Below are positions 7,734 to 37,107 of a stretch of 37,107 nucleotides of DNA, piece after piece. Below the pieces are notes generated by a model that saw only the letters and a list, made by a program, of their open reading frames with translations, was not told where the DNA came from and did no database searches. Positions within the stretch are counted from its first letter, which is position 1. Each line of letters begins with the position of its first letter. Both the position numbers and the translations under genes were made by a program. The DNA is taken from the NCBI GenBank assembly GCA_903862505.1, contig CAIOYQ010000004.1:1-37107 (forward strand), given 5' to 3'. This DNA comes from an uncultured Bacteroidota bacterium. GTDB lineage: Bacteria > Bacteroidota > Bacteroidia > Chitinophagales > Chitinophagaceae.

Positions 7734-9626
7734 TTAGTCGTTTACTATTAAAACAGGGATAGACACACTATGCCTTACTGCCTCGATGGTTTCACCAAAG
7801 AAATAGTCCTTCCAGCCCTTATGTTTATGTGCGCCCATGACCAACAATTGTGCGTCTTTTTCCTTTACAATTCTTACTATTTCTTTAACTCTATTTTGAT
7901 ATCCAATGGCCGAAGTAGCCTTGTACCCTTTATCTCTTAATGCATTCGTATAATTGTCTAGTCTTTCTTGGTCTTTTCTGGATTCTTCGTCATCGCTTGC
8001 TTCTAATAAATAATTAGCAGCAACACTTTCTACCACATGAATAAATATAAATTCAGTTTCATTGGCTTTATCGCCAGTTACTTGTTGCATTGCATGCGCA
8101 ATGGCCGTTTTAATTAACTTTTGATCACTTGATGAAAAATCTACAGCAATGGCAATACGCTTTACTGGCTCGGTATGTGTCCAATCTAACTCAATATCTT
8201 CGCCATGCAGATCGGTAATTTTTTTCTTACTACTTGAACTTAATAATGGATAAATTACAATGTATAATAACAAACTAATAAAAAATACCACCAGTAGAAC
8301 AAGTAATAATTTTAGCGCTATATGGCCTGATTGATGAAAGAAATCAACAACAAAATTGAATACTAAATTTCCATTTAAATAAACCAACACCGCAGCTACG
8401 ATCCAAGCCAAAGTTTTAGTTTTCCATCCTATGGCAAATTCACCCATCGTAGTTTTATCACTCACAAAGTGTATCAATGGAATAACCGCATATCCTAATT
8501 GCAAACTCAAAATCACTTGACTAAAAATAAGCAAGGCGTCCACATGATCTTCTCCCATAAAACCGATGACTAAAATGGCTGGTACAATCGCAACCAAACG
8601 TGTTATCAAACGTCTAATCCAAGGGTTTAATCTAATTTTTAAATACCCTTCCATTACAATTTGACCTGCTAAAGTGCCTGTCACAGTTGAACTTTGACCT
8701 GCTGCAATTAAGGCCACTGCAAATAAAATGGGTGCTAATTTAGAACCTAACAATGGAGCCAATAAGGAGTGTGCTTCTTCAATTTTAGCAACCTCCTTAT
8801 GACCCGTTGCATAAAAAGCAGTTGCTGCTAAAATTAAAATGGCGGCATTTACAAAAAAGGCTGCATTCAAAGCTACCACCGTATCAATGAAATTATAAAA
8901 TATAGATTTTTTAATTCCGGGGACATTTCTATCAATTTTTCGAGTCTGTACCAATGCAGAGTGTAAATACAAATTATGTGGCATCACCGTAGCACCAATA
9001 ATACCCACTGCTATATATAAAGCCTCAGGAGATAAATTGGAAGGAACAAACCCTTTAATCGCATATGATAAATCGGGCTTGGCAATAAATAATTGTATAA
9101 AAAAACTAAACCCAATGGTCGCCACTAATAAAATAATGAAGGCCTCCATTTTTCGAATTCCATAGCGTTGTAAAAATAAAAACAAGAAAGTATCTGTTAC
9201 CGTAATAATGGTACCATACATTAAAGGCATACCGGTTAGTAATTTAATTCCAATAGCCATTCCCAAAACTTCGGCTAAATCGGTAGCGGCAATGGCTAGT
9301 TCCGCCAACACATACAATGAAAAATTAACTACGGGCGGATAGGTTTCCCTATTTACCTGGGCTAAATCTAAGCGCCTAACAATGCCTAACCTAGCACTTA
9401 AACTTTGTAACAATACTGCCATTAAATTACTAAGTAATAAAACCCAAATCAATTGATACCCAAAAGCGGCCCCTCCTGCTAAATCGGTGGCCCAATTTCC
9501 TGGGTCCATATATCCCACACTTACGAGATAAGCAGGGCCAATAAATGCAAAAAATTTTCGCCAACCCGTTTTTTGACTAGTTGGAACGGATTCATGTAAG
9601 GTATCTAATGATTTATCGGAATTCAT
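7734..9626 (-). CDS. Nramp family divalent metal transporter fused to a C-terminal universal stress protein (UspA-like) domain
   Basis: Nramp TM1 '[12 protein letters not shown]' and TM6 '[13 protein letters not shown]'. C-terminal about 140 aa '[25 protein letters not shown]…[35 protein letters not shown]' is Usp-like. Confidence 0.92.
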
Positions 9627-10742: not shown

Positions 10743-12401
10743 ATGAGTTTTAGAAATTACCAGGTGCCTTATAAAATAAACGAACAGTTTAAGAAAAAGG
10801 CAGCCTACTTTTCTATGGAATTTGCGATTCACCAACCCTTGAAAATTTACAGTGGTGGTTTAGGCTTTTTAGCGGGTTCCCATTTAAGAAGCGCATATGA
10901 ATTAAATCAAAACATGATTGGCGTAGGGATCCTTTGGAAATATGGTTATTATGATCAAGCTAGAAATCAGGATCAAACCTTACAGGTGACTTTCATGGAG
11001 AAAATATATAGCTTTTTGGAAGATACGGGTATTAAGTACCAAATAATGATTCATGATCATCCAGTTTGGGTAAAAGCATTCTATTTAGCACCCAACACAT
11101 TTTGTAGTGCGCCCTTGTTTTTATTAAGTACGGACTTACCTGAGAACGATTACGTTTCTCAAACCATTACACACCGTTTATACGATGCAAACGTAGCTAC
11201 CAAAGTGGCGCAGTTTATATTATTGGGTGTGGGTGGAGCCAAATTAATAGATGAATTAAATTTTGAACCAGAAGTATACCATTTAAACGAAGCACACGGT
11301 TTTTCGAGTGCATTTTACTTATTAAATAAATACAAGTCCTTAGACGAGGTTAAAAAGCGTTTGGTATTTACAACACATACCCCTGAAGAAGCGGGTAATG
11401 AAAAGCATGATATTTATTTATGTCATAAAATGGGATATTTCTGTGGTTTAACCATTGACGAAGTAAGGAAATTAACGGGCATACATGACGACCAATTCAA
11501 TCACTCTTTAGCAGCATTGCGTTTTGCAAGAAAGGCCAATGGAGTATCTGAATTACATGGACATGTAAGCCGTGAAATGTGGGGAAAATATGAAGGCATC
11601 TGTCCAATTGATCATATCACCAATGCGCAAAACTGGCGTTATTGGGCCGACAAGCAATTGTATAAATTTTCCGAAGCCAATGACGATGCTGGTTTTGATG
11701 ATCGCAAAATGTATTTGAAAAAGCGTGCTTTTGAAATTGTTGCCGATCAAACTGGAAAAGTATTTGACCCCAATGTCTTAACCATTGTATGGGCCAGAAG
11801 ATTTGCTGGATACAAACGTGCCGATTTCCTTTCTTGGGATTTAGAACGTTTTGAAAAATTATTAGCCAATTTAAAGCATCCAGTACAAATTATTTTTGCA
11901 GGAAAGCCCTACCCTGTTGATTATCCTGCGATCTCTCAATTTAATAACTTAGTACACTTAAGTAAGAATTATAAAAATGTTGCGGTATTAATTGGATATG
12001 AATTGGGATTAAGTAAGCGTTTAAAACAAGCCTCTGACGTGTGGTTAAACAATCCAAGAGTTCCAAGAGAAGCCTCAGGAACTTCTGGTATGACTGCAGC
12101 GATGAATGGAGCGGTTAACTTTTCGACGGACGACGGATGGATCCCAGAATTTGTAAGCCACGGTCACAATGGTTTCGTAGTGCCTAAAGCAGATTACGGA
12201 AACATGAGCACACAGGAACAAGACGATTACGATTTAGAAGAGTTATATAAAATATTAGAAAACGAGATTGTCCCCATGTATTACGAAAAGCGGGATACCT
12301 GGCGCTCAATTACCAAAAATGGAATGAATGATGTTCGTTTCCAATTTGATAGTAATAGAATGGCCGAGGAGTATTACGAAAAAATGTACAAAACCACATA
12401 A
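10743..12401 (+). CDS. Alpha-glucan phosphorylase-like (GT35-type) protein lacking the canonical PLP lysine
   Basis: 'YFSMEFAIHQPLKIYSGGLGFLAGSHLRSA', 'TTHTPEEAGNEKHD', 'WARRFAGYKRADFLSWD', 'EASGTSGMTAAMNGAVNFSTDDGW'. Confidence 0.85.
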   Translation: MSFRNYQVPYKINEQFKKKAAYFSMEFAIHQPLKIYSGGLGFLAGSHLRSAYELNQNMIGVGILWKYGYYDQARNQDQTLQVTFMEKIYSFLEDTGIKYQIMIHDHPVWVKAFYLAPNTFCSAPLFLLSTDLPENDYVSQTITHRLYDANVATKVAQFILLGVGGAKLIDELNFEPEVYHLNEAHGFSSAFYLLNKYKSLDEVKKRLVFTTHTPEEAGNEKHDIYLCHKMGYFCGLTIDEVRKLTGIHDDQFNHSLAALRFARKANGVSELHGHVSREMWGKYEGICPIDHITNAQNWRYWADKQLYKFSEANDDAGFDDRKMYLKKRAFEIVADQTGKVFDPNVLTIVWARRFAGYKRADFLSWDLERFEKLLANLKHPVQIIFAGKPYPVDYPAISQFNNLVHLSKNYKNVAVLIGYELGLSKRLKQASDVWLNNPRVPREASGTSGMTAAMNGAVNFSTDDGWIPEFVSHGHNGFVVPKADYGNMSTQEQDDYDLEELYKILENEIVPMYYEKRDTWRSITKNGMNDVRFQFDSNRMAEEYYEKMYKTT

Positions 12402-36080: not shown

Positions 36081-37107
36081 TTATTTGGTGCCGTAAACAA
36101 AAACTTTATACCCCCAAGCTGGCAGGGATATATTGTGAATGTCTTTTAATTCCTGATGTGTAAATGCTTCAAAATAAGACTTACCGCTAGGAAGCGTTGC
36201 ATCCAATTTTACCTCATTTGCATTTTCCGATAAATTCAACACCACCACTACCAATGCATCTCCATTTTTTCTGGAATACGCCATTATTTGATTAGGGAGG
36301 TTTACTTTTATTCTTTCAAATACTGCATTGTCTTTAAAAGCTGCATTTGCAGTTCTTAAATTTAATAAGGTTTTATAAAAAGGAGCACGCTCATATTTAT
36401 TAAATCCCATTGAATCTTTTTCAAAGAAAGCAATCGGTCTTAAAACAGGCTCCTCTTGCCCACTATAAATAAGGGGTAAGGTTCTATTATAGGTTTGGGT
36501 AAAAACGGCAAAAGGCGCATGCTTTGTTCCTGGCATGGTGGCATAGTCCGCTTTGTTCCAAGAATTTTCATCGTGATTGCTGGTGAAATACAATCTCAAC
36601 GCCCCTTTCATAAAATCATTGTCAATTTTATTCAACACCGTGTCTAAGGATAATACATTCTTTTTGCCTGCTGCAATATCATTCATCACATGAAACTCGT
36701 TCCAAGTGTAGGTTGCATCAAAACCTGTTTCATGCAACTTGGCATCATCGGCTTCTGCCAAGAAAAATAATGGTCTTTCTTTATTTAAAGCGGGAATACA
36801 TTTATTCCAAAAGCTATAGGGAACCCCCCAAGCAACGTCCACTCTAAAACCATCGATCGCAGTATTTTTAACCCAATATTTCATGGCGTTAATCATACTG
36901 TCTTGCATTACTAAATTATCAAAATTTAGTTCCCTGGTATCTGACCAGTCCGCGGTAAAAATGGCCTTTCCCGTACTATCTCTTTCATAAAAATCGGGAT
37001 GTGTTTTTAACCAATAATGATCCGCTCCACTGTGATTAGGTACCCAGTCAATTAATACTTTCATGCCAAGTTGATGTGCACTCGTAACAATTTTATTAAA
37101 ATCATTC
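36081..37107 (-). CDS. GH13 alpha-amylase family protein, truncated at the window edge (5' end missing)
   Basis: 'KVLIDWVPNHSG', 'DGFRVDVAWGVP', 'FFLAEADD', 'YFTSNHDENSW'. The frame remains open to 37107. Confidence 0.9.
   Translation of the reverse strand, partial: NDFNKIVTSAHQLGMKVLIDWVPNHSGADHYWLKTHPDFYERDSTGKAIFTADWSDTRELNFDNLVMQDSMINAMKYWVKNTAIDGFRVDVAWGVPYSFWNKCIPALNKERPLFFLAEADDAKLHETGFDATYTWNEFHVMNDIAAGKKNVLSLDTVLNKIDNDFMKGALRLYFTSNHDENSWNKADYATMPGTKHAPFAVFTQTYNRTLPLIYSGQEEPVLRPIAFFEKDSMGFNKYERAPFYKTLLNLRTANAAFKDNAVFERIKVNLPNQIMAYSRKNGDALVVVVLNLSENANEVKLDATLPSGKSYFEAFTHQELKDIHNISLPAWGYKVFVYGTK

Follow-up and report, generated by a model that had tools for sequence, protein, structure and literature searches.

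The window, that is, the whole stretch of 37,107 nucleotides analysed, contains an unbroken forward-strand open reading frame for a GT35-like protein in which threonine stands at the place of the PLP-binding lysine (Table 1). Directly upstream and on the same strand lies the gene of a probable lipoprotein; among the loci compared, 79 contain a homologue of it, almost all of these in Chitinophagaceae. A gene for a transporter fused to a stress protein domain is also kept near the GT35-like gene in Chitinophagaceae, and an iron-dependent-repressor-type (DtxR) regulator was found in 36 of the loci compared. The alpha-amylase family gene at the end of the window is too distant for a link to the phosphorylase-like gene.

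Table 1. Positions of the GT35-like gene, its sequence features and the other genes discussed in the window
Position	Strand	Feature	Remarks
7734-9626	-	Nramp (MntH-type) transporter fused to a C-terminal universal stress protein (USP) domain	PF01566 and PF00582
9666-10634	+	Probable lipoprotein	322 aa; no Pfam match
10743-12401	+	Lys-less GT35-like protein, TIGR02094 'alpha-glucan family phosphorylase'	552 aa; stop codon included
10851-10880	+	Loop SGGLGFLAGS, residues 37-46	Last residue Ser in Thr clade, Asp in 50/50 Lys forms
11619-11645	+	TNAQNWRYW, residues 293-301	N294 and W301 kept; Q296 clade-specific
11796-11816	+	Phosphate-site motif R352-R353-F-A-G-Y-K358 (RX4K), equivalent of GP K568/R569/K574	Same in Thr and Lys clades
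11901-11912	+	G387-K388-P389-Y390	GKAH in Lys-type relatives (A389 and H390 in 50/50)
11997-12026	+	Helix Y419-E420...S424...K428	E420, S424 and K428 clade-specific (i, i+4, i+8); Y419 also in Lys forms
12024-12026	+	Lys428 (AAA), candidate replacement lysine	Invariant in clade; absent from Lys451 relatives
12069-12116	+	Motif EASGTSGMTAAMNGAV, residues 443-458, equivalent of GP E672-K680 motif	Sequence alignment
12093-12095	+	Thr451 (ACT), position of PLP lysine (rabbit K680, E. coli MalP K646)	Alignments; codon check
36081-37064	-	Alpha-amylase family (GH13) gene, cut by window end	PF00128 and PF16657

The protein was recognised by the family models TIGR02094 (437.9 bits, cut-off 191.7, E 7e-131) and PF00343 (55.4 bits, cut-off 27), and it scored far under the cut-off of TIGR02093 for classical GlgP/MalP (46 bits, cut-off 553). 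Its scores were also under the cut-offs of TIGR02095 for GT5 GlgA (42.1 bits, cut-off 328) and of PF00534 (22.3 bits, cut-off 26.4), the latter applied as a family model for GT4 that is not specific for trehalose phosphorylases. Members of the clade are annotated as 'alpha-glucan family phosphorylase', and a Pontibacter homologue is labelled 'glgP: alpha-glucan family phosphorylase'. On sequence grounds the window protein is a GT35/TIGR02094 homologue, but EC 2.4.1.1 is not assignable to it, since the lysine that holds PLP and defines this class was looked for and is absent.

The best match in both sequence and fold is the Lys-type TIGR02094/GT35 glycogen phosphorylase of Segatella copri (PDB 9l6i, 20yr; E 8e-73), which ranked first when an AlphaFold2 model based on 60 sequences was compared by Foldseek with known structures (TM 0.83, E 2e-35) and which identifies the fold as GT-B; E. 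coli GlgP/MalP came next, and the best-ranked starch synthase reached a TM of 0.65. The model as a whole had a pLDDT of 79 and a pTM of 0.78, and was weak around the pocket (low pLDDT at 354-356, 392-394 and 441-444). The S. copri enzyme resembles the window protein in the RX4K, Glu and GGL motifs but carries Lys in EASGTSGEKAEMNG, has 852 aa with extra segments and lacks the residues specific to the Thr clade. Classical GlgP, MalP and rabbit glycogen phosphorylase (TIGR02093) have the GT-B fold and homologous catalytic and phosphate residues in common with it, and differ in their PLP aldimine lysine and a length of about 800 aa. The sequence-only reading had drawn attention to this difference in length, which is real but not diagnostic, since Lys-bearing TIGR02094 proteins of similar length exist (L184, 545 aa, and L186, 569 aa, both with Lys at 451); short length is thus ruled out as a cause or marker of the lysine change.

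The replacement of the Schiff-base lysine proposed in that reading was confirmed by independent alignments. In phmmer alignments to the phosphorylases of S. copri (9l6i; EASGTSGMTAAMNG / EASGTSGEKAEMNG) and S. mutans (4l22; EASGTGNMKFMLNG), T451 falls on the PLP lysine, and a MAFFT family alignment places it in the same column. The remainder of the motif is indeed intact, with E443-ASGT conserved in both the Thr and the Lys clades. The aldimine lysine, which PLP phosphorylases have at E672+8, is absent not only here but throughout the clade: Thr was found at 451 in 81/81 close homologues (80 best matches in species genomes and the window copy, 79-98% identity; a homologue from Sediminibacterium goheungense is 87% identical to the window protein), and 138 distinct Bacteroidota members, collected by extending a survey of 296 genomes of the class with further genomes, carry Thr (135) or Ser (3). 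All four threonine codons are used at this position (ACT 52, ACG 34, ACA 27, ACC 22), and dN within the clade is 0.014-0.13 with synonymous sites near saturation. Considering that all 138 members have Thr or Ser, that every Thr codon occurs and that dN is low, a hydroxyl residue at 451 is under selection. Chance or sequencing error at this position is ruled out by the 81/81 Thr, the 138 distinct T/S sequences and the use of all four codons. The three serine forms are found at L131 (genome G106), L254 (G566) and L259 (G527); G106 encodes a Thr copy too, the Ser form there being the second paralogue.

The question raised earlier of whether homologues share the threonine can be answered: in the genomes sampled they do so in nine families of class Bacteroidia (by the labels of the classification tool). 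In the class survey, 33 of 296 genomes have a form of 550-660 aa, always with Thr except for one Ser paralogue, and Lys is found without exception in the longer forms, which measure about 850-1400 aa and are in some cases fused to GT3. A maximum likelihood tree with a classical GlgP as root unites the Thr/Ser sequences in a single group (SH-aLRT 100). The short Lys form L184 branches as its sister (support 98), and Lys is also present in every other TIGR02094 member of the tree. The unity of the Thr/Ser group is more certain than its sister relationship, because long branches were flagged for L184 and the outgroup. A single ancestral loss of the lysine would most simply account for this distribution.

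We set 45 Thr/Ser forms against 50 Lys forms to see what has changed in the pocket and what has stayed. G38-G39, N294, W301, R352, R353, Y357, K358, G387-K388, Y419, N436 and E443-A-S-G-T-S-G (including S445, G446 and T447) are common to both sets; in the phosphate-site-like ARRFAGYKR pointed out earlier, R352, R353 and K358 are conserved in both clades and the RX4K pattern is present. Together with K451T, three positions have switched that are invariant in each set (D46S, A389P, H390Y), and V296Q, D420E, A424S, V428K and W478F are further clade-specific switches. L184 keeps the Lys-type residue at 46 (Asp), 296, 389-390 (Ala-His), 420 and 451, and has Thr at 428. We take the unchanged residues to be those of the sugar and phosphate sites of phosphorylase structures, and several of the switched ones presumably lie toward the PLP ring. 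As the sugar- and phosphate-site residues are unchanged, the protein looks like an active enzyme rather than a relic, and the exchange of the lysine with the remaining catalytic machinery kept would imply either a different cofactor or mode of attachment, or another reaction, compared with the phosphorylases studied so far.

The genomes that contain the Thr form generally also contain a glycogen synthase (30/33; 17 GT5 GlgA and 13 GT3), compared with 23 of 231 genomes without any GT35 (Fisher p 8e-22, with genomes counted as independent); for genomes with a Lys-type or classical phosphorylase the figure is 28/32 (GT5/GT3). In the window's genome, which is 92% complete, GlgA and GlgB are encoded at other places and no second GT35-like protein was found. 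No Lys-type or classical phosphorylase was detected in any of the 33 Thr genomes of the class survey, and the Thr form, never occurring together with the Lys type in this survey, therefore occupies the place expected of the phosphorylase. However, a GH133 debranching domain (only GH133 was counted) is present in 21/24 Lys or classical genomes and in 7-8 of the 33 Thr genomes, which speaks against a simple replacement of the Lys-type phosphorylase. Three genomes of one genus (G089, G118 and G233; loci L129, L133 and L142) combine the Thr form with GH133 and have neither GT5 nor GT3 synthase. Within the tree, their Thr proteins cluster with those of Chitinophagaceae, pointing to horizontal transfer. 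Most Bacteroidia genomes of the survey also encode a stand-alone protein of ~275 aa that matches only the N-terminal half of GlgA; a conserved GlgA fragment in Bacteroidetes has been mentioned before (PMC11046441).

We tentatively favour the reading that the Thr clade consists of alpha-glucan phosphorylases without a canonical PLP aldimine at 451 (probability roughly 0.45). The protein would then be an active alpha-glucan enzyme with a GT-B fold that takes part in glycogen/maltodextrin metabolism, belonging to a GT35-derived clade that would have lost the PLP-binding lysine once and rebuilt the cofactor half of the pocket. As a retaining enzyme it would still transfer glucose between phosphate and the ends of alpha-1,4-glucans, running toward glucose-1-phosphate in the cell, and catalysis would rely on E443 and on the phosphate site R353-X4-K358. 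The role of the PLP phosphate would be filled by a phosphate that needs no aldimine at residue 451, candidates being PLP bound non-covalently, some other phosphorylated ligand or a further inorganic phosphate. The data establish the missing lysine, the Thr/Ser conserved in its place, the kept sugar and phosphate residues, the coordinated substitutions and the joint occurrence with glycogen synthase; what we infer for the clade is its cofactor, substrate, reaction and direction. The favoured reading draws on these findings, and also on the single Thr/Ser group, the catabolic neighbours common to Thr and Lys forms, the fold match to the S. copri phosphorylase and the existence of retaining phosphorolysis outside GT35.

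The PLP phosphate acts as acid/base in phosphorolysis (PMC11046441; PMC4336185), and GT35, described as containing phosphorylases only, is according to PMC4336185 the sole phosphorylase family needing PLP; that it is described as requiring PLP as acid/base counts against the favoured reading. On the other side, the GT4 trehalose phosphorylase is a retaining enzyme with an RX4K motif (PMC12018205; PMC4336185) and stands outside the PLP family. The resemblance of R353-FAGY-K358 in the window protein to this motif is a functional analogy only, as family and substrate differ, but considering that GT4 achieves retaining phosphorolysis without PLP and that PLP is unique to GT35, phosphorolysis by a GT35-derived enzyme with an untethered phosphate would by analogy be chemically plausible. 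Pyridoxal-reconstituted phosphorylase has been studied with phosphate analogues, according to the citation of that work as reference 2 in PMC12018205. The three Thr genomes without either type of glycogen synthase, all from one genus, also count against the favoured reading, as do the scarcity of the GH133 domain among Thr genomes and the small number of loci behind the neighbourhood evidence, and PLP could be held by Lys428, which would go against its cofactor part. Moreover, the retained residues do not single out phosphorolysis, because several of them align with residues of NDP-glucose synthases.

A rather unlikely alternative is that the clade is a nucleotide-sugar-dependent alpha-glucan glucosyltransferase with an NDP in the position of PLP. 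Retention of the phosphate/sugar half of the pocket while other positions were rebuilt would agree with it, as would the three genomes lacking GT5 and GT3 synthases, and a profile alignment to GT5 GlgA superposes E443, Y419 and T451 on the GlgA motif. Thr451 follows the catalytic Glu by eight residues, which is where the second Glu of the EX7E motif stands in many GT-B enzymes. GT5 GlgA is of the same fold class as the window protein, with Glu and Tyr aligned, but it is an ADP-glucose enzyme, and a separate GlgA is encoded in the window's genome. More generally, a GT5 or GT3 synthase already exists in 30 of the 33 Thr genomes, so that replacement of a missing synthase is ruled out for most of them. 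GlgA model scores are higher for T forms than for K forms (median 8.9 vs 0.5 bits), but the window protein scores much like the short Lys form L184 (9.7 vs 8.4 bits), which indicates no specific drift; the excess of the T forms is probably a matter of length, and evolution toward GlgA was rejected on this basis. In favour of a nucleotide sugar, there is a published proposal in which PLP took over from a nucleoside monophosphate in a proto-GT35 (PMC11046441).

It is also possible, although we consider it unlikely, that the cofactor lysine has moved, with PLP covalently bound to Lys428 and the other substitutions re-orienting its ring. Lys428 is present in 138/138 clade members and in 0/50 Lys451 relatives, where Val, Ile or Thr stands instead, and it may substitute for the lost lysine. 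Its helix is the one that follows Y419, and it comes two turns after E420 and one turn after S424, both clade-specific. The sequence-only reading had named a lysine reaching the pocket from elsewhere as a refutation, and a candidate is thereby found, but its placement derives from topology. In a Rossmann fold this helix and the next one, bearing residue 451, presumably lie against one and the same side of the sheet, and a relocated lysine is possible for this reason; the proximity of 428 and 451 is nevertheless deduced from GT-B/Rossmann topology with a model of low confidence at the pocket, and a buried Lys could have other roles. A pseudoenzyme serving as glucan sensor or scaffold, an idea likewise raised beforehand, might be suspected from the loss of a residue essential in all characterised relatives. 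We regard it as very improbable, since every catalytic and phosphate-site residue compared, including E443, R353, K358 and all those of the sugar site, is strictly conserved in 138 sequences under strong purifying selection. A normal PLP phosphorylase whose lysine had been missed through an alignment or sequencing error would suit the glgP label of the Pontibacter homologue, but the motif alignment is gap-free with T or S in 138 distinct sequences, and the sequence data exclude it for practical purposes.

A search of the open-licence literature (subscription papers were outside it) found no description of Lys-less GT35 proteins. With its wide distribution and strict conservation, a clade that lacks the PLP lysine breaks the rule that GT35 consists of phosphorylases needing PLP, and many Bacteroidota proteins labelled glgP may carry a wrong description. 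We see an even chance that the clade is the first GT35 lineage without PLP at all, either as a PLP-free alpha-glucan phosphorylase or as a nucleotide-sugar GT35 enzyme. If so, it would allow a direct test of the proposal that PLP replaced a nucleotide (PMC11046441), and the Thr clade offers a natural system for testing how PLP entered a nucleotide-sugar fold. The pair Thr451/Lys428 is a simple target for mutagenesis.

With regard to neighbouring genes, the Thr form is clustered with acetate kinase, phosphoketolase and USP genes at L139, and phosphoketolase also lies near it at L127, L144 and L253. GlgB and TreS/maltokinase genes stand beside it at L146, cyclomaltodextrinases lie nearby at L126 and L136, and a type II GAPDH gene adjoins it at L180. 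The Lys form of Leptolyngbya (L181) has phosphoketolase and USP neighbours, and that at L194 (G411) has a GAPDH-family gene and a PfkB-family kinase. Thr and Lys forms thus have similar catabolic/stress neighbourhoods at the few loci concerned. Two Lys-type proteins (L181:3839-5698, on a Leptolyngbya plasmid, and L193:9237-11069, in G411) additionally have a short cysteine-containing N-terminal segment (DPVCGM / DLICGM ... FCS), which resembles YHS-type metal-binding domains.
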